The notes beneath the pieces are model-generated. The model searched no databases, was not told where the DNA came from, and was given only the letters and a program-made list of their open reading frames with translations. The position numbers and the translations under genes were made by a program. Source: a virus. Taken from it: 37,967 nt of DNA. Shown here piece by piece: positions 1,876-37,967 of this stretch (positions are counted from its first letter, which is position 1; each line of letters begins with the position of its first letter). The DNA is taken from IMG/VR virus record IMGVR_UViG_3300035661_000167, positions 1-37,967 of that record. One strand, written 5' to 3'.

Positions 1876-1896
1876 AGTTCCTCCCTTGTTAGTTAG

Positions 1897-2037
1897 TTAG
1901 TTAAACCAAGTAAATACTGGTGCCGCACCAGCCTGCCGAATAAAGGCCATAGCTTGTCGTAGCGACGGAAACACATCAAGTATATAACGGTCCTTCTCCA
2001 CTGCATACTGTCCTTCGGCGGTAATATAGATGTTCAT
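1897..2037 (-). CDS. Small early protein (46 aa), first gene of minus-strand operon
   Basis: ATG at 2035-2037 is preceded by AGGAGGGG, the strongest ribosome binding site in this operon. The 46-residue product begins MNIYITAEGQYAVEKDRY and ends in FIRQAGAAPVFTWFN. It resembles a tiny beta-beta-alpha fold: a two-stranded start, then a helix (SLRQAMAFIRQAG). The AAGTAAATA box characteristic of the control region is also present inside its last codons (1908-1916). It is the promoter-proximal gene, directly downstream of the tandem promoters at 2068-2182. A fragment of its 3' end is duplicated at 1434-1480. Function unknown. Confidence 0.7.
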   Translation of the reverse strand: MNIYITAEGQYAVEKDRYILDVFPSLRQAMAFIRQAGAAPVFTWFN

Positions 2038-2067
2038 AGTGCTATCCCCTCCTGTTTAGTTATTTAC

Positions 2068-2096
2068 TTTTTACCATCATCAGCAAACCGTGTCAA
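2068..2096 (-). promoter_or_regulatory. Early promoter proximal to the minus-strand operon
   Basis: On the minus strand a perfect -35 TTGACA (2091-2096) is followed by 17 bases and TAAAAA (2068-2073, 4 of 6). The start would fall near 2061, about 25 bases before the first gene's ATG. One AAGTAAATA box lies just upstream of the -35 (2102-2110) and another overlaps the -10 and start region (2061-2069), so a protein bound there would block polymerase. Confidence 0.6.
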
Positions 2097-2153
2097 CAAT
2101 TTATTTACTTTGTGCTGCGTCTCCCAGCCGGTTATTTACTTTCTACGTTTATT

Positions 2154-2182
2154 TACTTATCACGATCAGCAAACAGTGTCAA
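2154..2182 (-). promoter_or_regulatory. Second, upstream early promoter (duplicate)
   Basis: TTGACA (2177-2182) with a 17-base spacer and TAAGTA (2154-2159), a poor -10; GATAAG at 15-base spacing is an alternative. The upstream half is nearly identical to the promoter at 2068-2096, including the adjoining box at 2188-2196, and the -10 again overlaps a box (2150-2158). It may be a degenerate duplicate rather than an active promoter. Confidence 0.4.
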
Positions 2183-2573
2183 TACTTTATTTACTTTTTT
2201 CTGAGGCGGGTAAAAGAGGCGTTTTTGCGGCGGTAAATAACTTGCAAGCTGCTGACTTCTTTGTGTTTATTTTTAAATTTTATTTATAAGTTATACAGTG
2301 TAGATTTTTAGAAGCTAGAGACAGCAACTTTTTTTCTACGCTGAGAGATTGAAACGCTGTTGGACGTTTACGCCACCCGGCCGCGCCCCCAAAAAACGCG
2401 CAATAGAAGTGGTGTATGTTTTGGCCTTTTTTTTTTACACTAATACATATAAACAAAAACAGTATTAACTACATAATAAATTCGCACACTTGTGGCTGCT
2501 TTACTTTTGCAAATCAACTTTTCTATTTTCCACTTAGTTCCAACATGCTGGAATCACTGCCGATTATCCCGCC

Positions 2574-2608
2574 AAAGTAAATACGTTTTTTAGCTGTTTA
2601 TTTACTTT
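2574..2608. repeat. Inverted pair of AAAGTAAATA boxes
   Basis: AAAGTAAATA (2574-2583) and its exact reverse complement TATTTACTTT (2599-2608) face each other across 15 bases. The symmetry suits a protein dimer or two facing monomers. The single exact box at 2687-2695 lies between this pair and the next palindrome. Confidence 0.75.
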
Positions 2609-2700
2609 TTATAATGTATACGCTAACAAATATAATACAATTCAGGACAAGATTTATCCTCTTACAAACAGTTTTGAGCCAAGTTTTATTTACTTTTGAA

Positions 2701-2725
2701 ATGTAAATAGAAATGCTATTTACAT
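2701..2725. repeat. Perfect 25-bp palindrome built on GTAAATAG
   Basis: ATGTAAATAG (2701-2710) and CTATTTACAT (2716-2725) are exact reverse complements separated by five bases. The core GTAAATAG is shared with the 28-bp array. It could be an operator for a dimeric regulator, or the inverted operator often found beside iteron arrays, where a replication initiator represses its own gene. Confidence 0.75.
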
Positions 2726-2852
2726 TGGGTTTTCGTTAATGATTCTATGGCTTTAACTGGATGCAGATTTTTAAGCCTTACATTTTGTCAGGTCAATCGG
2801 TCGTATTCGCTGTTTTATTTATTTTTGTTAGTGCGAAGTAGTGTACCGTTTG

Positions 2853-3033
2853 AAAAGTAAATAGTGAGGCTGGGAGCGCGAAAAGTAAATAGTGAGGCTG
2901 GGAGCGCGAAAAGTAAATAGTGAGGCTGGGAGCGCGAAAAGTAAATAGTGAGGCTGGGAGCGCGAAAAGTAAATAGTGAGGCTGGGAGCGCGAAAAGTAA
3001 ATAGTGAGGCTGGGAGCGCGAAAAGTAAATAGT
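2853..3033. repeat. 28-bp tandem array, six perfect units plus a partial (iteron-like)
   Basis: Six identical direct units start at 2853, 2881, 2909, 2937, 2965 and 2993, and a partial seventh covers 3021-3033. Each unit begins AAAAGTAAATAG and ends CTGGGAGCGCG, so each carries one AAGTAAATA box in the same orientation. There are no spacers, which excludes CRISPR. Perfect identity points to recent amplification or strong homogenisation. Iterons of plasmid origins are usually 17-22 bp; 28 bp is not a whole number of helical turns, so neighbouring boxes face different sides of the helix. A binding array for an initiator, repressor or partition protein is the most likely role. Confidence 0.9.
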
Positions 3034-3037
3034 AGGG

Positions 3038-3076
3038 TCAAAAAATAAAGGCCAACAGCAACCAGCTGTTGGCCTT
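3038..3076 (-). terminator. Rho-independent terminator of the 84-aa gene
   Basis: A perfect 12-bp stem, AAGGCCAACAGC (3048-3059) with GCTGTTGGCCTT (3065-3076), loop of five. Read on the minus strand it is followed by TTTATTTTTT, a proper U-tract. It begins 12 bases after the stop of the gene at 3088-3342. No T-run follows on the plus strand, so it acts in one direction. Confidence 0.88.
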
Positions 3077-3087
3077 GCGCCTACCTA

Positions 3088-3342
3088 TTACCGGGAAGCT
3101 AATACTGCTTCCCTCCGATGCCGGGCCAGCTGCAAACGTGAATATGACTGCCCGGCTGTGCAGCCGTGAACAGACCTATACAGTTCACGGCTGAAGGCGG
3201 TCATATCCGCCAGAGAGACGCAGTTAAACGTCTCACGACGCAGCAGTCTCAGGCTGCGAAGTTCCCTTTTTACAAGGGAACGAAGATCAAGCCCTTCGGG
3301 CTTGAAACAAAACCTTGAAATACTATCCAGATTTCTTAACAT
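3088..3342 (-). CDS. Arg-rich 84-aa protein in an autonomous unit; hairpin-dense DNA
   Basis: ATG with AGAGGGG as ribosome binding site; the product starts MLRNLDSISRFCFKPEGLDL and is very basic (Arg-rich throughout). It has its own consensus promoter (3393-3421) and intrinsic terminator (3038-3076), the layout of a moron. Its base composition and codons (many CTG, CGT, AGC) differ from the AT-rich surroundings, which suggests transfer. Oddly, the DNA is packed with perfect inverted repeats: 3093-3113, 3120-3156, 3161-3193 (11-bp stem), 3142-3206 (outer stem), 3215-3234, 3239-3258, 3261-3281 and 3287-3305 (UUCG-type loop). The same unit could therefore encode a structured RNA instead of, or as well as, a protein. 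I do not recognise the protein; a small nucleic-acid-binding regulator would fit its charge. Confidence 0.62.
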   Translation of the reverse strand: MLRNLDSISRFCFKPEGLDLRSLVKRELRSLRLLRRETFNCVSLADMTAFSRELYRSVHGCTAGQSYSRLQLARHRREAVLASR

Positions 3343-3392
3343 AATGTTTCCCCTCTCTGGCGTTAGGTCGCCACCCGTAATTTGTTGATCCG

Positions 3393-3421
3393 ACTATAGC
3401 AAGCGGTGCGGCAGGTGTCAA
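3393..3421 (-). promoter_or_regulatory. Consensus sigma-70 promoter for the 84-aa unit
   Basis: On the minus strand TTGACA (3416-3421), 17-base spacer, TATAGT (3393-3398): 11 of 12 consensus positions. Transcription would begin near 3386, 44 bases before the ATG. Unlike the early promoters it carries no AAGTAAATA box, so it may be constitutive; related AT repeats lie directly upstream (3427-3504). Confidence 0.85.
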
Positions 3422-3426
3422 GCATT

Positions 3427-3504
3427 TTATTTATATTTGTTAGTGTGCTGTGTTATTTATGTTTGTTAGTGTGCTGTATTATTTATTTTTTGTTAGCGTC
3501 GGTT
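3427..3504. repeat. Three 26-bp tandem repeats (TTATTTAT...GTTAGTG)
   Basis: Copies start at 3427, 3453 and 3479. The first two differ at only a couple of positions; the third is degenerate after GTTAG. A single further copy lies at 2815-2833, just before the 28-bp array. They sit immediately upstream of the -35 of the 3393-3421 promoter and between the two transcription directions. They may be a second class of binding site, an UP-element-like tract or duplex-unwinding DNA. Confidence 0.7.
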
Positions 3505-3778
3505 GTCGGTCTGAGAAAGTAAATAGATCGGCACGTTCTAGGGTCACGACCCTTTCCTGGGCACGACTCGAAAAAGTAAATTGTGGGGTGAGGGGGGGCC
3601 TGACCCAAGGGCGGGTATAATTTTTATTTTACTCCACCACGCTCACACTCCAGACCAATTTTACACTTATTTATTTTTACTACCAATTTTACTGCGTGCC
3701 TTTACTCCGCGTTCACTCCATGAACTAAGTTCTTGATTTAGGTTTTCATTGTGTGCTACATACAGTATAGGAGGGAGT
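3505..3778 (+). promoter_or_regulatory. Leader region of the late operon with a candidate late promoter
   Basis: No gene is seen here. A perfect TATAAT lies at 3616-3621, but the -35 position is a G-run, so it would need an activator. An exact box (AAAGTAAATAG, 3516-3526) and a variant (AAAAAGTAAATTG, 3571-3583) lie upstream, the second about 45-57 bases before the predicted start: a position where activators often bind. The rest, to 3778, is AT-rich leader ending in the GGAGG ribosome binding site of the small terminase gene. Confidence 0.4.
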
Positions 3779-4300
3779 ATGTTAAACGAAGAGTTCATGG
3801 TTGAGGATTATTTAGAGGAGTTGGCTACACCTGCTGCACCGCCACAGGTACAACGTAAGCCCAAAGACTATCCTCAGAACTTCTGTATGGAGCTTGCACT
3901 TGGTTTAGAGGACGAGGACGCTCTGTGCATACGGTACAATATAACCCCTTACGAGTACGAGTGCCTGAAAGAAAATCACGCCTTCCAGAAAGACCTGTCC
4001 TCATGGCGAAGCCGTGTGGCAGAAGAGGGTCTGAGCTTCAAACTGAAAGCCAGAGTTCAGAGTGAGATGTACCTACAGGAGATAGACAATATAGTATATG
4101 ACCCAAGTACGAGTCCTGAGACGAAGCTGAATGCCATCACCCGCTGTGTGGAGTGGGCTGGGCTTGGGCCTAAACAGCAAGTACAGAGTAGTGGAGAAGG
4201 TAGGGTAGTTATAAGAATCGAGTCAAACATAGGCTCGGTAATACCTACTACAGCTAAAGTAGTGGGAGGAAAACAGGAATTAGGAATCATTTCCATGTAG
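3779..4300 (+). CDS. Terminase small subunit (probable)
   Basis: I place the start at ATG 3779, behind a perfect AGGAGGG, rather than at the in-frame ATG at 3749, which has no such site; this gives 173 residues. The N-terminal part is acidic and proline-rich. The middle (about 55-120) is helical with NITPYEYECLKENHAFQKDL, which resembles the DNA-recognition helix region of phage small terminases, and the C-terminus has a short beta-like tail. It is the first gene of the plus-strand late operon and lies upstream of the large terminase, where such subunits select viral DNA for packaging. The identity rests on gene order and fold impression, not on a strong motif. Confidence 0.6.
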   Translation: MLNEEFMVEDYLEELATPAAPPQVQRKPKDYPQNFCMELALGLEDEDALCIRYNITPYEYECLKENHAFQKDLSSWRSRVAEEGLSFKLKARVQSEMYLQEIDNIVYDPSTSPETKLNAITRCVEWAGLGPKQQVQSSGEGRVVIRIESNIGSVIPTTAKVVGGKQELGIISM

Positions 4301-4343: not shown

Positions 4344-5087
4344 ATGAAACGTTATTCATGGACCCCAGACCTCCCCGATCATAGAGACCATATCTTCGTA
4401 GGTGTGACAAAAACCCTACCACCGCATGTTGATCTACGACCTGGATGCTCACCGGTAGAGGATCAAGGCAATCTAGGTAGTTGCACAGGAAACGCTATAG
4501 TCGGATGTCTTGAATATCTGGAGAAAAAAGATGGTGTCCCTTTTCAAGATTTATCCAGACTATTTGTCTATTACCAGGAGCGAGTAATTGAGGGTACTGT
4601 AAGTCAGGATGCCGGAGCCATGATACGTGACGGAATAAAAGCGATTGCAAAAGTAGGAGTCTGTGCTGAATCGCTGTATCCCTATAACATTGACAAGTTC
4701 AAGACCAAACCATCCGATAAAGCCCTTGCTGATGCCAAGAATCACCTGATTACCAGTTACGCCAGAATCACTACTCTCCAGAATATGAAACAGTGTCTTG
4801 CCGATGGTTTTCCATTTGTATTTGGATTTTCTGTATATGACTCTTTTGAGAGTGATACTGTAGCAAAAACTGGAGTGGTACCGATGCCAGCAAAGACTGA
4901 GAAACTGCTAGGAGGCCACGCGGTAGTGGCAGTAGGTTATGACGATGCAACCCAACGATTCATCGTCAGAAATAGTTGGGGTACAGGTTGGGGACAGAGT
5001 GGTTACTTTACAATCCCATATCAATATCTCAGTAATACTAACCTTGCAGATGATATGTGGACGATTCGTCGTGGAAATAACCTGTAA
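4344..5087 (+). CDS. Papain-like (C1A) cysteine protease, 247 aa
   Basis: Start ATG 4344 follows AAGGAG; earlier in-frame codons lack a binding site. The catalytic set of peptidase family C1A is complete: Gln41 of the oxyanion hole in EDQGNLGSCTGNA, nucleophile Cys47, His192 in GGHAVVAVGYDD, and Asn210 in VRNSWGTGWGQSGYF. The length fits the bare catalytic domain; there is no signal peptide and no long inhibitory propeptide, only about 30 residues before the domain (WTPDLPDHRD). It lies between the two terminase genes in the late operon, so it is made with virion proteins. Possible roles are processing of a structural protein, cleavage of host proteins on entry, or a packaged enzyme. The family call is firm; the role is unknown. 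Confidence 0.9.
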   Translation: MKRYSWTPDLPDHRDHIFVGVTKTLPPHVDLRPGCSPVEDQGNLGSCTGNAIVGCLEYLEKKDGVPFQDLSRLFVYYQERVIEGTVSQDAGAMIRDGIKAIAKVGVCAESLYPYNIDKFKTKPSDKALADAKNHLITSYARITTLQNMKQCLADGFPFVFGFSVYDSFESDTVAKTGVVPMPAKTEKLLGGHAVVAVGYDDATQRFIVRNSWGTGWGQSGYFTIPYQYLSNTNLADDMWTIRRGNNL

Positions 5088-23069: not shown

Positions 23070-23443
23070 TGACTCACTTACCTCGCATATCCGTGAATAC
23101 CAAGCCGCACACAAGCCAGCACTATGACACTGCCGGTGACTACAAAGAGATACCTAACGCTTGGGTAGTTTCAGTTTCAGAGCTGTCCGACTGGCGGCAT
23201 GAAGCTCTCATTATGCTGCACGAGCTGGTAGAGATGGTACTTACTAAGAACAACGGCGTATCATGGGACGATATAACCTGCTTCGACATTGAGTCACAGC
23301 ACCCAGACCCCGGCTCTTTACCAGAAGCTCCGTATCATAAAGAGCATAAGTTCGCAGAGAAGATAGAGAAGATGATAGCTAAAGAGCTAGGTGTGGATTG
23401 GAAAGAGTATAACAAGGAACTCGATTCTCTGGAGTATAAATAA
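23069..23443 (+). CDS. Minimal zincin-like HExxE protein (124 aa)
   Basis: Start overlaps the ATP-grasp stop (TGATGA). The core is a helix EALIMLHELVEMVLT (about residues 44-58) carrying HELVE, followed later by a Glu/His-rich segment (EAPYHKEHKFAEKIEKM). HExxE is close to the HExxH metalloprotease motif; with the later His residues it could bind zinc, but the second His of a classical zincin is replaced by Glu. Tight coupling with the ATP-grasp gene suggests a joint function, for example ligation and hydrolysis of the same bond. Alternatively it is a degenerate structural relative. Confidence 0.55.
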   Translation: MTHLPRISVNTKPHTSQHYDTAGDYKEIPNAWVVSVSELSDWRHEALIMLHELVEMVLTKNNGVSWDDITCFDIESQHPDPGSLPEAPYHKEHKFAEKIEKMIAKELGVDWKEYNKELDSLEYK

Positions 23444-24195
23444 TGGCTATTACCTTAATGCCTTCGCCAGTCATGCAGTTCTTCAACTCAGTAGGTGACC
23501 CGTTAGCCGGTGGTATGCTGTATACTTACCAGCCTTTGAGTGCGCTGCCTAAAGCTACTTACACTGACTCCTCTGGCGCGACACCCAACACTAACCCACT
23601 GGTCTTAGATGGTGCAGGTAGAGCATCCATTTGGCTTGATGGGTCGTACAGTATGACTCTTACAGATGCTGATGGGGTTACTCAGTGGCATGCAGACAAC
23701 GTAGTTTCAGGGGACCAGAGCCAGTTTGCTAATCTACAGTCCCAGATCGACACACTAACTTCAAACCTTACCGGCTACGCACCTTTGACATCACCCGGCT
23801 TGTTGGGAACCCCTACTTCGCCTACGGCGAATACAGCTACATCCACTACGCAGATCGCTACCACGGCTTTTGTGCATAATGTGGTGAATCAAGGCGTGAC
23901 CAGTGTTACCTTTATTGGTATGGTAGTATTCTTTGCTACGCCCGTAGCACCTTCTGGTTGGCTAGCTTGTGATGGTTCGGCCTACAGTCGTACTACATAT
24001 GCAAATCTGTTCGCTGTAATTGGCACTACTTACGGCATTGGGGACGGGATAAACACCTTCAACGTGCCCAATATGAAAAACAAGTTCCCACTTGGATGGG
24101 ACCAGATTAAGACCTTTGGAGTGTCTGAAACTATCGTTGCTTCCGGTCCTACTGGACCGTCTGATATTATCCTTTTACCTTGTATAAAAGCCTAG
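23443..24195 (+). CDS. Short tail fibre with collar domain (250 aa)
   Basis: Start overlaps the previous stop (TAATG). The N-terminus (MPSPVMQFFNSVGDPLAGGM, LYTYQPLSALPKATYTDSSG) is the widespread podovirus fibre head, usually attached to the virion. Residues about 150-220 are a phage tail collar domain (VFFATPVAPSGWLACDGSAY, then FNVPNMKNKFPLGWD). The protein ends soon after the collar, without a long receptor domain, so it may be a base or adaptor for the larger fibre encoded next. Located just before the 910-residue fibre. Confidence 0.82.
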   Translation: MAITLMPSPVMQFFNSVGDPLAGGMLYTYQPLSALPKATYTDSSGATPNTNPLVLDGAGRASIWLDGSYSMTLTDADGVTQWHADNVVSGDQSQFANLQSQIDTLTSNLTGYAPLTSPGLLGTPTSPTANTATSTTQIATTAFVHNVVNQGVTSVTFIGMVVFFATPVAPSGWLACDGSAYSRTTYANLFAVIGTTYGIGDGINTFNVPNMKNKFPLGWDQIKTFGVSETIVASGPTGPSDIILLPCIKA

Positions 24196-28187: not shown

Positions 28188-28418
28188 ATGCCCCCTGATC
28201 GCACCCTTACTGACGCTGATATTGCTGCCTTGTCTATAGCCTTAAAATCAGACTCTTGTTCTTGCCCGTTTACTAACGACGAGATTTCAGCGGTAAGGAG
28301 CCTACTAGACCTTATGCACGAAACTAAAAGTAGTATTATTAAAGGTCTAGTCGGGGTTATTATAGCGGGGTTCTTTATAGTATTGGCTATTGGGGCAAAG
28401 GTGTGGGTGAAACAATGA
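28188..28418 (+). CDS. Holin-like protein with C-terminal membrane span (76 aa)
   Basis: ATG after GGAG. The N-terminal half is soluble and Cys-containing (KSDSCSCPFTNDEISAVRSL), with a helix (DLMHETKSSIIKG), then a single span of about 20 residues (LVGVIIAGFFIVLAIGAKVW). Small one-span proteins of this design lie beside amidases in many phages. It could be a holin, or an accessory membrane protein with the next small gene acting as holin. The stop overlaps the next start (ATGA). Confidence 0.6.
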   Translation: MPPDRTLTDADIAALSIALKSDSCSCPFTNDEISAVRSLLDLMHETKSSIIKGLVGVIIAGFFIVLAIGAKVWVKQ

Positions 28419-28573
28419 TTACCAAAGAGGTATTATTGCCGGATGGATCCATAGTGTCATGTAATACCTGTTTTTTATATCATCACAAAAAGAAATACTG
28501 CTCATTGGACGGAAAGCAACACGTAGGTTGCTTCCAAAATTATATGCGTATGGGAGGGCTGGAACAATGCTGA
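28415..28573 (+). CDS. Cys-rich zinc-binding-like protein (52 aa)
   Basis: ATG 28415 overlaps the stop of the holin-like gene. The product has VSCNTCFLYHHKKKYCSLDG then GCFQNY: C-x2-C, a third Cys 9 residues later, and a fourth before a C-terminal aromatic. The pattern resembles the 46-residue protein at 33644-33784, so two members of one small metal-binding family appear to be present in this phage. Function unknown. Its end overlaps the next start. Confidence 0.62.
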   Translation: MITKEVLLPDGSIVSCNTCFLYHHKKKYCSLDGKQHVGCFQNYMRMGGLEQC

Positions 28574-28755
28574 AACGGTTAAAAAGGCTTGTTGAGACAT
28601 TTATTGCTAAAAAATATGTGGCTTGGGTAGTGGCGGTGTTACTGCTTTGTTACGGTAAAATATCTGGTACGGATTGGATAATGCTGACAGGGGCTATCTT
28701 TGCTATTGATGCGTATTCAAAGGGTAAGACTACTCCCCCGGAGGCATCGTGCTAG
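28567..28755 (+). CDS. Second holin candidate (62 aa)
   Basis: I choose ATG 28567, behind GGGAGGG and overlapping the previous stop, rather than a codon 39 bases upstream. The product has a basic N-terminus (MLKRLKRLVETFIAKKYVAW), a hydrophobic stretch (VVAVLLLCYGKISG) and a second (DWIMLTGAIFAIDAY): a possible two-span class II holin. It precedes the spanin genes and overlaps the inner spanin start. Confidence 0.62.
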   Translation: MLKRLKRLVETFIAKKYVAWVVAVLLLCYGKISGTDWIMLTGAIFAIDAYSKGKTTPPEASC

Positions 28756-29063
28756 AATTTATCCTGCTGTATCGTAAAGAGATAGTTTATGGGATAGCTG
28801 CTGCAACAATAGCAGGCATTATTTATTGGTTCGGGTTTCACATACCCACAAAACTAAAAGCAGCACAAGCAGACAATGTGCAGCTACAGGTCCAAGTTGA
28901 AGCTGGACAAAAGGCTATTACATTGCTTGAAGATATTCGAAAGGGAAAGGCCAAGATAGATGACAATACATTCCGGCAGATCAGTTCTGTTCGCGGCAAA
29001 ATTGGCAAGCCTCATACTGTACTTATCCCTGCTGGCAGGTTGTCCATGTCCTCCATGCATTAA
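28749..29063 (+). CDS. Inner-membrane spanin (Rz-like, 104 aa)
   Basis: GTG 28749 behind GGAGG. An N-terminal signal anchor (EIVYGIAAATIAGIIYWFGF, about 11-30) is followed by a periplasmic coiled coil (KLKAAQADNVQLQVQVEAGQ ... LEDIRKGKAK). That is the i-spanin design: it links the inner membrane to the outer-membrane lipoprotein and disrupts the outer membrane at lysis. The outer spanin is nested in another frame within its 3' half, as in the lambda Rz/Rz1 pair. Confidence 0.85.
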   Translation: MLEFILLYRKEIVYGIAAATIAGIIYWFGFHIPTKLKAAQADNVQLQVQVEAGQKAITLLEDIRKGKAKIDDNTFRQISSVRGKIGKPHTVLIPAGRLSMSSMH

Positions 29064-33784: not shown

Positions 33785-34154
33785 TGGGCGCATGGAGTGA
33801 TCTCAAAGAAGGTGTTAAGGTGGTCGGGCGGGGTATGCTCGACAAGACAAAGAGCGCAGAAGCTAAACCTGCGGAGAAAGCCCCTCCCGCCAGCATCGGT
33901 AGTACTGAGAAAGCCCTTAAGGACAGGGGGGTGCAGAGCTTAAGAAACTGGATCCGTACAAAAAGGGTGGTAAGGTTAAGAAAACTGGACCTGCATTAGT
34001 CCATAAGGGTGAGCGGGTTCTGACTACTAAGCAGGCCTAGAAGCTGGATGCGAACCCTGCGATGAAGAAGGCTCTAGGTGTAAAGAAAGCCGCCGCGATG
34101 AAGAAGGCGGCCAAGAAGTCAATGAAGAAGCAGCCAAAAATGATGGTCCTTTAA
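33784..34154 (+). pseudogene. Broken gene: frameshift at a G6 run and in-frame amber codon
   Basis: The frame starts at ATG 33784 (MGAWSDLKEGVKVVGRGMLD) and runs out at 33999 with an unrelated-looking end. If one shifts to the -1 frame at the six-G run (33926-33931), the reading becomes AELKKLDPYKKGGKVKKTGP then ALVHKGERVLTTKQA, a motif (YKKGG-VKKTG-A-VHKGE-VLT-KQ) I know from late phage proteins. That frame then meets TAG (34038-34040) where Lys or Ala is expected and resumes KLDANPAMKKALGVKK to a stop at 34152-34154. Two lesions in one gene argue for decay, though programmed slippage at the G-run is possible for the first. Last gene of the late operon. Confidence 0.72.
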
Positions 34155-34234: not shown

Positions 34235-34669
34235 TCATTCTTTCTTCACCTCCCTATGGTAGTATATCGTCAGCAGGTTCCATACTGCTTTCAGTATGTG
34301 CGGGTTGCCGCCATCAGGGTCAATACGCTCTCCTGACCTATCCTTGTCCAAGTGCCGGATAGCAGGAGCCATAAGTTTCTCTGCTTCTTCGGTAGTGAAC
34401 TTCTTCCAGCTCCCTCTGCTGTACTTCTTATCAATGCCCTCTTGGTAAATCTTGGACAGCGCTTCAGTAACCCACGGCTCTACAAGCGTGGGGTCGTACT
34501 TGCCCTCGTCGTACTTGAGGGGGTGCCCTACTCCCGTTTTTACGCTGGCAGACCGAAGCACTTCATCGCCCTCCACGTAGTGCTTCATTGCTACTACATC
34601 TTCGCCGAATGCTCCCAATGCTTCGGCTTGTTTACGTGTAACCTCAACCCCTCTGTAAAAGTACCGCAC
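34235..34669 (-). CDS. DUF5664-like nucleotide hydrolase-related protein (144 aa)
   Basis: GTG 34669 behind GGAGGGG. After a short N-terminal part, residues about 55-140 carry the DUF5664 pattern: DEGKYDPTLVEPWVTEALSK, IDKKYSRGSWKKF, APAIRHLDKDRSGERIDPDG and NPHILKAVWNLLTIYY. In databases I recall this domain being linked to dATP/dGTP diphosphohydrolase N-terminal regions and placed near MazG-type proteins, with Glu/His/Asp residues that could bind metal and nucleotide. It overlaps the 3' end of the primase-helicase gene by 26 bases, so it is probably translated with it and adjusts nucleotide pools during replication. The biochemical activity is inferred. Confidence 0.68.
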   Translation of the reverse strand: MRYFYRGVEVTRKQAEALGAFGEDVVAMKHYVEGDEVLRSASVKTGVGHPLKYDEGKYDPTLVEPWVTEALSKIYQEGIDKKYSRGSWKKFTTEEAEKLMAPAIRHLDKDRSGERIDPDGGNPHILKAVWNLLTIYYHREVKKE

Positions 34670-37433
34670 TATCGTCCCCTCCTTCTCGCACTAGCTGCGC
34701 TTTAGTGTACCCCATTGTCGGATTGTTAAGGTCCAGTACCCAGCAGATTTCCGCAATACCTGCGTACTCGGTGCCGTGGCCCAGAACCACTCTTTTGTTG
34801 TCTGCCGTAAGCGCACGAGACGCTACCAGTTCTTGTTTCAGTTTGCTGTAGCTGGCGGAGCCTATCAGTAGTTCGCGTTTCAGTAGGTCACGGCTGATCC
34901 ATACAGTGTCAGTGTCCATATCCTTGCGAATATATAGCGGGCCGTGGGGCTTAACCACTGGCTCGTAAATGCTCTTACCATGCTTATCTTTACCTACTGC
35001 CCTGACTACCATCATATTAGCCGAATACTTACTGAGGAACGTACCGATCCATGACGGGCTATCAACTACAGTGTCGTCTTTAACGCCGCGCATTTTCTCA
35101 ATGGTTTTGAACACCCATTTGCTCAGTCGGGCCAAGTCTACGTGGAACAGACCCAGCTTACTGGCAATTGCAGCGCCATACAAAGCACACGCAGCGGTAA
35201 TCGCCCAAAACCGTTCTTCTGGCTTGCAATTTGCCTGCTTCTCGATGCCGGTCTGTATTGTACGGAGCCTTTCTGCGTGTTCGTCCTGATGGTCTACTAG
35301 GTATTTAGCAAAAACCTCTCCAGCAAGCCCGTAGTTTGCCATAACTGTAGTGTAGGCTGTAACACCGTCAAACACTACCCCCGATGGGAACTCATACTCA
35401 AAAATACGGTTAATTTCAGCCGACGGGTCTGATTTATAGCCACCCAAGATGTCAACAAGGCTCTTGTTACTGGACGCGCCGCCGATGGTAGCCCATGGCA
35501 AAGCCGGTCTTTCTGTTCTGCCTCTGGTCAGAGTGTGTTTGTCTCGGCCTTGTGTAATCTGATATGCCATGTCAGAGAGAATCTTCTGGTCTATGTTGGT
35601 TATCTCGTCTATGAACAGCGGCAGGTTATTATAGAGACTCATCCTCGCTACTGTAGCATTCTGGGTATCCCGCTGGATCATCTGCAGTTTCTCCGAGTTC
35701 CCCCAGACTGATAGCGCCCACCAGCCCATCGCGGTTTTCCCAAGACCGGACTTGCCAACCATCGAGAGCATCGACCCCTTGTAACCCGTAAAACGCATTA
35801 ACGGCGCGCCGAAGCCGAGTGCTGCTAAAGTAAACGCCCACGGTTCAAGTCCTTCCTTGTCGAGAATACGAGTAGCCTCGCTCCACTTAGTTAAATCGCC
35901 GTTTTTAGTTATTGCTTTCACTACAGAGTCAGCTTGTTTAGCAATTCCAACCTCTTCCACTCCGCGTTTAGAGATAAGTCTGTCACCAAGTACAAATGCC
36001 AGAGTGCCATCGTGTTCTTCATGCCATCCCATTTGTTGCGACAGGACTACCTTACGGCGCTGGTCCTTTAGCTGTTGTAGATACCCTGCTAGTAGCTGCA
36101 TAAACATACCTTTTTCATTCTTGCCGAAGTATGAGTGAACCCCTTGGTCGGATAGTGTCATAAGAAGCTGTTTTGGATCATGCAGCAGCGCAGTTCTCAG
36201 ACTTACGTTGAACCATCCAGTATGAGGGTCTTTAGCTCTCAGAGCCATAATCTCCTGTCCCAGACTATCATCCTGAGTGAGTTTAACCGGATATATGTCG
36301 TAGGGGAACACGTTAAGTACGTCTCCCTCACCATCAGTGTAGATGATACCTTTATCGGTTCTAGCGAAGCCCGCAGGTAAGAATATTTGAATATCCTTTG
36401 CTTCCTCGGCGGGTATCTCTACCGGCTTTGGGTCGGGCAGCCCCAACCTCCAGGGGCTGTTGATCTTGCCGTGATGGGAGCAACCTACGCAGCCGTCGGG
36501 GTTTACCGAGTGCAGGTAATGGCAGGTAGAGGCACGGACCTTATGTTGTTCGATCTTCTTCTCAGTAGCTTCACGGCTGTACTCCGCGTGCCCAGTAGAC
36601 CACTCATGTATGATCTCTGGAGCCTCAATTGTGGACTTGAGCAGTCCTATTAGGGCGTACCACTGAGGTTCTGGAATGTTGCCCTTAGTAGTCCGCATTT
36701 GTCCTACCTGGGCGCAACGATCCGCAATTTTATGGGCTGATGGCTTCTCCCCTGACATCTCAAGCTGGAACTCAGCATTAAGTTGTGTAGGAGGGGCTTC
36801 AAAGGTTTTGGCTGGAATCTTGTGCTTATGCGATGCTTGGAGCAAAGGCTTTGCAAACTCTTGGATGCTAATAGCAGGGGCTACCACTACTGTCTTTACT
36901 GTGCGCTCTCCACCTTTCTTGCGGTTTGTCGCCCCTACCGGCCTTAGAACAGAGCTTCGGTCAGCGGTTCTTACTGGGTCTACTTCAAACTGCATCGCAG
37001 CACATACCCGTTTCAGGAGTTGCGCAATTGCCAACCACTTATCTGCAGGTACATCTTCGTTTATTGTCCAGTACGCATACAGCCCTGTACCAGAGTTTAC
37101 CACTGTCGGCATAGGCATTGACAGAGCTTCGTAAAAAGCCTTTAGCGCCTTGACGCCGTCTGCCTGAGTACTGAACGGCTTGCCAGACCCACAATCTATA
37201 TCCAGAAAGAATGTACGGAATGACTCAGCGTTCTCCCCTTTTCGGTTGGTAGGCTCTTTAAAACCGGCCTGCCCAAAATATACTGTCTCGCCCTTTGAGT
37301 CTTGGTACATGGCAAAGCTATAGGCTTTTTCCTTGTCCTCAAACCAGCGGTGCTGGAATCCCCCCTTTGGATTTAGAATGCCTATGCAGTAGTAACCGGT
37401 GTCAGGTAGGACGGACTTGAAAAAATCTAACAT
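34644..37433 (-). CDS. Primase-helicase with DUF927 ATPase domain (929 aa)
   Basis: ATG behind GGAGG. The N-terminal 180 residues resemble an archaeo-eukaryotic-type primase: FLDID (76-80, metal-binding acids), SGTGLYAYW (114-122) and DPVRTADRSSVLRPVGATNRK across 152-172. A Cys/His cluster at about 304-320 (C304, C315, C318, H320) may bind zinc. The C-terminal half is a DUF927-type helicase: QMGWHEEHDGTLAFVLGD, Walker A GKSGLGKT (560-567) and Walker B LPLFIDEI (604-611), then TRGRTERPALPWATIGGA. This combination suggests self-sufficient initiation of replication, synthesising primers and unwinding DNA, as in plasmids and satellite phages. It ends by overlapping the DUF5664 gene. Confidence 0.85.
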   Translation of the reverse strand: MLDFFKSVLPDTGYYCIGILNPKGGFQHRWFEDKEKAYSFAMYQDSKGETVYFGQAGFKEPTNRKGENAESFRTFFLDIDCGSGKPFSTQADGVKALKAFYEALSMPMPTVVNSGTGLYAYWTINEDVPADKWLAIAQLLKRVCAAMQFEVDPVRTADRSSVLRPVGATNRKKGGERTVKTVVVAPAISIQEFAKPLLQASHKHKIPAKTFEAPPTQLNAEFQLEMSGEKPSAHKIADRCAQVGQMRTTKGNIPEPQWYALIGLLKSTIEAPEIIHEWSTGHAEYSREATEKKIEQHKVRASTCHYLHSVNPDGCVGCSHHGKINSPWRLGLPDPKPVEIPAEEAKDIQIFLPAGFARTDKGIIYTDGEGDVLNVFPYDIYPVKLTQDDSLGQEIMALRAKDPHTGWFNVSLRTALLHDPKQLLMTLSDQGVHSYFGKNEKGMFMQLLAGYLQQLKDQRRKVVLSQQMGWHEEHDGTLAFVLGDRLISKRGVEEVGIAKQADSVVKAITKNGDLTKWSEATRILDKEGLEPWAFTLAALGFGAPLMRFTGYKGSMLSMVGKSGLGKTAMGWWALSVWGNSEKLQMIQRDTQNATVARMSLYNNLPLFIDEITNIDQKILSDMAYQITQGRDKHTLTRGRTERPALPWATIGGASSNKSLVDILGGYKSDPSAEINRIFEYEFPSGVVFDGVTAYTTVMANYGLAGEVFAKYLVDHQDEHAERLRTIQTGIEKQANCKPEERFWAITAACALYGAAIASKLGLFHVDLARLSKWVFKTIEKMRGVKDDTVVDSPSWIGTFLSKYSANMMVVRAVGKDKHGKSIYEPVVKPHGPLYIRKDMDTDTVWISRDLLKRELLIGSASYSKLKQELVASRALTADNKRVVLGHGTEYAGIAEICWVLDLNNPTMGYTKAQLVREGGDDSAVLLQRG

Positions 37434-37463: not shown

Positions 37464-37492
37464 AGCCTAATCCCACCACATAATATTGTCAA
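37464..37492 (-). promoter_or_regulatory. Candidate promoter before the primase-helicase gene
   Basis: On the minus strand TTGACA (37487-37492), 17-base spacer, TAGGCT (37464-37469, weak). The -35 overlaps the end of the XRE-like gene. A short GGGAT/ATCCC inverted repeat overlaps the -10 region. No AAGTAAATA box is present. Confidence 0.35.
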
Positions 37493-37764
37493 GCTGTCAC
37501 TCCAGACACTAATTCTTTCAGGTGGTTAATACGTTCTGCTTTTGGTATGTCCAGACTAAGCGGCAAACGCTCATCTGCTACCAGCTTGTTCAAAACTTGA
37601 ACGCAGTCTATAACCGTGATGCCTTTATTCTGGTCCTCTATGTCAGTAGACCCGTTAAGATAAGAGTGGATAGTCTGACGGCTTACACCGCACAGCGCCC
37701 CTAACTCGCCGTAGGTTACGTCAGCCATAGCCAGAACGCCCTTTATTTTGATTGTGATGTGCAT
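37489..37764 (-). CDS. XRE-like helix-turn-helix regulator (91 aa)
   Basis: I place the start at ATG 37764 behind AAAAAGGA; the longer frame to 37872 has no ribosome binding site and a non-phage-like start. The helix-turn-helix is VTYGELGALCGVSRQTIHSYLN split across residues about 16-37, followed by GSTDIED and a helix with VIDCVQVLNKLV. A short basic-hydrophobic strand precedes it (MHITIKIKGVLAM). Such proteins are repressors or replication regulators. It is a candidate for the protein that binds the AAGTAAATA boxes, only by being the one clear DNA-binding regulator in view. Upstream of the primase-helicase gene on the same strand. Confidence 0.75.
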   Translation of the reverse strand: MHITIKIKGVLAMADVTYGELGALCGVSRQTIHSYLNGSTDIEDQNKGITVIDCVQVLNKLVADERLPLSLDIPKAERINHLKELVSGVTA

Positions 37765-37855: not shown

Positions 37856-37967
37856 TTACAGGTTAATACCAAGCAAGCTGCTCAAGTCGTCGTCGCTCAT
37901 GTCGCTGTCAGTGGTTTCTTCCTCTACAATAGGATTTACTACTTTAAGCGGAGTTTTCTCTTTCTTG
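37856..37967 (-). CDS. C-terminal fragment of an acidic-tailed protein
   Basis: The last 36 codons of a minus-strand gene that enters from the window edge. The tail is KKEKTPLKVVNPIVEEETTD, then SDMSDDDLSSLLGINL: a disordered acidic C-terminus with a hydrophobic tip. Such tails occur on ssDNA-binding and recombination proteins, where they recruit partners, but the family cannot be decided from the fragment. A short G-rich stretch and a GGGG/CCCC hairpin lie between it and the XRE-like gene. Confidence 0.6.
   Translation of the reverse strand, partial: KKEKTPLKVVNPIVEEETTDSDMSDDDLSSLLGINL

Follow-up and report, generated by a model that had tools for sequence, protein, structure and literature searches.

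The DNA analysed here, 37,967 nucleotides of IMG/VR virus record IMGVR_UViG_3300035661_000167 (positions 1 to 37,967; hereafter, the window), is a phage fragment that encodes a P22-like coat protein and a phage portal protein. Early genes run leftward from position 1875 and continue along the minus strand at the right end of the window, and late genes run rightward, beginning with the gene for the small terminase subunit TerS (3779-4300, plus strand), homologues of which adjoin TerL in eight relatives. A gene for a papain-family (C1) cysteine protease is found in an unusual location, between TerS and TerL (4344-5087). On the early side, small minus-strand open reading frames (ORFs) at 1897-2037 and approximately 1430-1510 have similar C-termini, FIRQAGA[A/S]PVFTWFN, and judging by these sequences they are apparently copies of a duplicated small early gene. 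The gap between the early and late genes is occupied by many copies of one 9-letter box, AAGTAAATA.

We found 16 exact copies of AAGTAAATA in 2041-3583, on both strands. Those at 2061, 2102, 2133, 2150, 2188, 2599, and 2687 are on the minus strand and those at 2575 and 3517 on the plus strand; the other seven recur every 28 bp from 2855 to 3023, on the plus strand, in a tandem array. Three further exact copies occur elsewhere in the window, at 1908, 7469, and 19143, with the one at 1908 having a poor weight-matrix score (9.9) and lying inside a 46-aa ORF; it forms part of the coding sequence of the 1897-2037 ORF mentioned above. Dinucleotide shuffles of the whole window gave a chance expectation of 0.49 exact copies per 38 kb. 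Because the seven array boxes all lie within one perfect 28-bp tandem, they represent a single expansion event, and hence, the independent count is about 10. With the array collapsed, 11 copies were seen against 0.07 to 0.5 expected under Markov models of the region itself, and the maximum in 300 runs was 4. The box cluster is real: all 16 copies that an earlier note on this DNA had described were confirmed at their coordinates and on both strands, but the chance figure of 0.01 given there was too low, and 0.07 to 0.5 is fairer. A weight matrix identified 19 sites scoring at least 14.9, all between 2061 and 3582, and its maximum in the rest of the window (about 36 kb outside the intergenic region) was 13.1. 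Three of these sites are near-exact, namely ATGTAAATA at 2701 (plus) and 2717 (minus) and AAGTAAATT at 3574 (plus). Box spacing outside the array is irregular (17 to 41 bp), with both orientations represented. A neutral repeat expansion with no function, which was already disfavoured, is barely credible as an explanation: the array is indeed a perfect 28-bp tandem and therefore young, but it leaves about 10 further boxes, irregularly spaced and in both orientations, against the 0.07 to 0.5 expected, and equivalent clusters of other sequences occur in relatives.

The five leftmost boxes, all on the minus strand, constitute a left arm (2061-2196) that overlaps two near-identical, leftward, early sigma-70-like promoter units (2071-2203, minus strand), which were recognised from the repeat, a promoter scan, and the sequence. 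These units are a 47-bp repeat with 83% identity; the first contains TTGACA-17-TAAAAA (2096 to 2068, minus strand) and the second TTGACA-17-TAAGTA (2182 to 2154, minus strand). At each promoter, one box is located 5 bp upstream of the -35 element and another overlaps or abuts the -10 element. The boxes thus overlap two promoters in the way that operators would, which counts against reading the region as a replication origin, and short boxes that overlap early promoters are well known as the operators and stoperators of phages lambda and L5. The boxes might accordingly be the operators of a transcriptional switch, in which a phage regulator (a 91-aa helix-turn-helix (HTH) protein described below, or one from the missing part of the genome) would repress the early promoter pair and also act at rightward or late ones, with replication being incidental. 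Such a switch would account for boxes that abut the -35 and -10 elements of duplicated TTGACA promoters and for the right-hand boxes (3517-3582, plus strand; 3517 exact, 3574 with one change), which precede both a TATAAT at about 3616 and the TerS gene (3779). It is nevertheless unlikely, since it does not explain the presence of the array, the coincidence of the central cluster with the AT minimum, or the minimum of the skew, and since no box occurs at any other promoter across 36 kb. Stoperators of the L5 type are scattered genome-wide, whereas nothing comparable was found here outside the 1.5 kb. The earlier note had proposed that a single phage protein acts on early transcription, late transcription, and perhaps replication through these boxes. 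One binder does fit, and boxes do flank the two early promoters; late-transcription control is the weak part, because it draws on just two boxes, at 3517 and 3574, upstream of a TATAAT.

The central part of the region, the proposed origin core (2560-2760), contains boxes at 2575 (plus), 2599 (minus), 2687 (minus), 2701 (plus), and 2717 (minus), the last two of which make a perfect inverted repeat, AATGTAAATAG-aaatg-CTATTTACATT. Among these central boxes, at 2571-2740, is the 150-bp stretch with the lowest GC content in the window (25%). The cumulative GC-skew has its minimum at 2669, within the core boxes, and its maximum in the window at 34146, although the early and late genes diverge here, and gene orientation alone, as a confounder, could yield the same minimum. 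The region therefore has short repeats in both orientations (19 sites) beside an AT-rich element, as iteron origins do, and a skew turning point at the boxes, the latter with the same confounding by gene orientation. To the right of the core, the tandem array (2852-3033, plus strand) consists of 6.5 perfect copies of the 28-bp unit GAAAAGTAAATAGTGAGGCTGGGAGCGC and carries seven boxes in one orientation. The non-box half of this unit, GGCTGGGAG, recurs between two left-arm boxes (2102-2141), so that the unit could have arisen from the DNA of the early promoters. No DnaA box (TTATNCACA, with at most one mismatch) was found in 1876-3778, which counts against an origin; DnaA boxes are present in many, not all, iteron origins and are not a defining feature for self-loading initiators.

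Between the array and the right-hand boxes lies a gene for a structured RNA (3048-3393, minus strand), recognised from a promoter, an intrinsic terminator, and a string of hairpins. Its promoter, TTGACA-17-TATAGT (3421 to 3393, minus strand), has the best sigma-70-like score in the window (16.0, the next being 13.4), and the transcript runs leftward from about 3390 to a strong intrinsic terminator with a perfect stem at 3076-3048. The RNA folds as a row of hairpins far better than its shuffles (z -7.2). No Rfam family matched the 3048-3393 RNA, and no convincing relatives of it were found at the same position in other phages. An 84-aa ORF inside the RNA (3088-3342) lacks the codon usage of the phage; it was considered as a regulator and ruled out, in view of its non-coding codon usage and lack of homologues. 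By its sequence features, the minus-strand RNA of 3048-3421 is probably non-coding. Directly upstream of its promoter are 2.7 copies of the 26-bp repeat TTATTTATnTTTGTTAGTGTGCTGT (3427-3496), whose AT tracts resemble UP elements, as we infer, or degenerate boxes. RNA-based prophage origins exist in mycobacteriophages (PMC7157519), and as an analogy for the present RNA they offer a lead only.

A candidate for the protein that reads the boxes is encoded near the right end of the window. The 929-aa primase-helicase (34644-37433, minus strand), a proposed self-loading initiator, contains a DUF927 domain (Pfam PF06048, 3e-30) that matched by sequence SaPIbov1 Rep (8tch) at 2e-10 and SCCmec Cch (5dgk) at 1e-4. 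When residues 361-929 were modelled (pLDDT 83), the structure superimposed best on Cch 5dgk (Z 30.3) and then on SaPIbov1 Rep 8tch (Z 27.1), with the next best structural match, an MCM, reaching Z 12.5. The C-terminal domain (approximately residues 780-929, model pLDDT 84) is a winged helix. Aligned alone with VIA-align, it matched 8tch 441-567 (Z 9.7, rmsd 5.3, 115 residues) and 5dgk 442-556 (Z 9.6, rmsd 2.9, 90 residues), as well as the pCW3 relaxosome accessory protein that was solved with oriT DNA (Z 9.2); for other winged helices, Z drops to about 5. A Foldseek search with the C-terminal domain alone returned nothing significant (best E 0.45). The protein thus combines a DUF927-type, MCM-like helicase with a C-terminal winged helix of the same fold as in the SaPI Rep/SCC Cch family, of which SaPIbov1 Rep is a self-loading helicase. 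In SaPI Rep, the C-terminal domain recognises origin iterons, and the C-terminal domain of Cch2 binds short direct repeats (PMC7581432).

The alternative box binder, or co-factor, is the 91-aa HTH protein encoded just upstream of the initiator (37489-37764, minus strand; HTH_3 E 0.0014, below the curated cut-off). The next gene of this cassette (37856-37966, minus strand) is represented by its C-terminal end only, being cut by the contig end; from the gene position in relatives, it probably encodes their acidic-tailed SSB-like protein. The cassette SSB-like/HTH-like/DUF927 is kept in most of the phages examined that have a DUF927 initiator.

The AAGTAAATA cluster is private to this phage, judging by the collections searched, as it was found in no other phage or viral contig among them. 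No similar DNA was detected among 50,697 phages; scans of IMG/VR and GTDB with two-box and three-box patterns returned mostly microsatellites or coding repeats; the 28-bp array unit had zero exact matches in IMG/VR; and AAGTAAATA was absent from the close head-gene (terminase) relatives L009-L020. Box density in related phages, which had been put forward as a refuting check, is therefore misleading, because related phages carry other boxes. A peptide-pattern search for the DUF927 protein gave no match, as the patterns were too strict, and an alignment query yielded many IMG/VR relatives. In the non-coding DNA of 23 DUF927 genomes (this window, 20 IMG/VR contigs, a Rhizobium phage, and Pseudomonas phage Rollin), we looked for words of any sequence that cluster on both strands. 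Strong clusters of an own box were present in nine of the 23, this one included, compared with one of 17 controls without DUF927 (Fisher p 0.018, with a post hoc threshold set after the data had been seen). Such a cluster was not found in the remaining 14 DUF927 contigs, many of which may be fragments missing the region.

Rollin, a cultivated relative, shares the gene order of the window; its DUF927 protein is 29% identical, and it carries 10 copies of AAAAGGTAG between its early and late genes, mostly as inverted pairs. This cluster is at 61262-497 of the Rollin record. The own boxes of other relatives are TAAGCCATTA in G001, AATAATCT(A) in both G004 and G006, AACTATCTA in G005, AATAGTAA in G008, TGTAAGAA in G018, and CTGTTACGC in G020. 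The top 8-mer exceeded all 500 shuffles in 10 of the 11 regions compared, which were those of the nine strong-cluster genomes, of G011 with its weaker cluster, and of the control G029. Most of these relatives have their boxes two to three in tandem at 8-9 bp, several of these adjoining TATATATA stretches, and in several relatives, box arms are in opposite orientation. The tandem spacing of 8-9 bp differs from the 17 to 41 bp and 28 bp seen here, a point that counts against the origin reading. Of a core common to all boxes, only GTAA was mildly enriched (median z 2.2), which is unconvincing. G004 and G006 also have a second repeated box, GTAACC, besides AATAATCTA, in 10 and 12 copies (L434/L439; G004 28200-28760, G006 23380-23960). 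Clusters of TGACGTTA and TGCACAGGG near AT-rich stretches and upstream of terminase genes were also observed (L331 1663-1909, L336, and L292 5090-5320) in short contigs of distant relatives, on which the initiator is not present.

The sole control that passed the threshold, G029, has no DUF927 and is closely related in its head genes, its TerL being 64% identical. It has six copies of ACCGGCCCA, on both strands (L486 1280-1545), immediately 3' of a primase-helicase gene of the Prim-Pol/PriCT-2/DUF5906 type. This position suggests that the boxes there go with the initiator and not with a late promoter, and the G029 primase-helicase would be another type of initiator, paired with a box of its own. 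It also argues against a purely transcriptional switch, in that the G029 cluster is downstream of the primase-helicase gene, away from early and late promoters. In a third explanation, the phage would be a plasmid-like prophage and a ParB- or RHH-type protein would bind the boxes, which would serve as a centromere in partition or as an incompatibility locus. This explanation could draw on the tandem short boxes near a promoter that are typical of RHH centromeres and on an ORF beside the Rollin boxes that we read as RHH-like. We consider it very improbable, as no par gene was recognised among the window genes examined, and box arms of opposite orientation around the AT minimum of the window fit an origin better.

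Two proteins compete as the box binder. A small HTH-like gene directly upstream of the DUF927 gene was present in nearly all relatives examined, although only some of the encoded proteins pass Pfam cut-offs, and RHph and G022 have neither the HTH gene nor a strong box cluster. This conservation, with the small HTH gene adjoining the initiator gene, is what keeps the XRE-like/HTH protein a real candidate from its sequence, and it would also suit a switch regulator. G004 and G006, which have identical boxes, share near-identical HTH sequences and a common C-terminal domain, and G005 is close to them in box, HTH protein (a similar helix), and C-terminal domain. The identical boxes and near-identical HTH proteins of the former pair, with the similar helix and box of the latter, would again suit an operator switch; however, box, HTH protein, and C-terminal domain vary together, so that this co-variation does not discriminate between the binders. 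On the structural models, the HTH protein is no likelier to bind the boxes than the initiator is through its C-terminal winged helix.

Taken together, the 1.5-kb region is probably a phage replication origin in which AAGTAAATA serves as the iteron read by the phage-encoded DUF927 initiator, because distant relatives preserve this arrangement, with the box differing from virus to virus. The main role of the boxes is more probably replication, since the own-box clusters of relatives lie by AT-rich DNA and the G029 cluster adjoins the primase-helicase gene. Box binding would be through the C-terminal winged helix of the initiator, perhaps with assistance from the small HTH protein, and rings of the initiator would form on the arms; it would then melt the AT-rich DNA of the core (about 2560-2760), and bidirectional replication would start. 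Since the left-arm boxes overlap the two early promoters, initiator binding there probably represses early transcription: occupancy of the five boxes at 2061-2196 would shut down leftward early transcription and couple both processes. The 28-bp array may act as an extra initiator-binding or copy-control array.

The known system whose mode of action this region most likely shares is the SaPI-type iteron origin, here carried by a tailed phage and built on a private box that also occurs at early promoters. SaPI origins likewise have multiple short iterons, which are recognised by the C-terminal domain of Rep (PMC7581432), and lie directly downstream of rep; here, in contrast, rep is at 34644-37433 and the boxes at 2061-3582, with genes between them on an incomplete contig. 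It is thus not a SaPI module, because the origin is not adjacent to rep, although the SaPI rep-ori geometry is found in the relative G029. Further differences from SaPIs are that this is a tailed phage with a P22-like head, that a primase-like part is fused to the helicase, that the iterons overlap early promoters, and that the region additionally contains the 28-bp array and an RNA gene. SCCmec Cch has a DUF927 helicase like that of the phage and is its best structural match (Z 30.3), whereas SCC is a chromosomal cassette without phage genes, in which cch2 is followed by three iterons of 5 nt (AAGTG). A similar case is the alpha protein of phage P4, a single protein that serves as primase and helicase and also binds the origin, with short asymmetric iterons (ori/crr type I) in two places. 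The iteron sequence and layout of P4 differ from those of this phage.

A broader proposal, which we put forward tentatively and hold to be somewhat less than an even chance, is that phages with the SSB-like/HTH/DUF927-initiator cassette form a clade with SaPI-like iteron origins, the box changing from phage to phage, and that in the present phage the box also silences early promoters and the embedded RNA participates, a replication-transcription switch that would be undescribed for tailed phages. With these findings, a count of boxes becomes an origin that can be put to the test, for a group of phages that are uncultivated. They also suggest a rule for finding origins: among phages whose initiators are related, look for a box that is specific to each phage, occurs on both strands, and adjoins AT-rich DNA. 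The initiator-box pairs provide a set for studying iteron choice by winged-helix initiators, with the HTH protein as a possible specificity factor. The findings suggest, in addition, that entire tailed phages are driven by the type of initiator that is familiar from the islands and cassettes of staphylococci.
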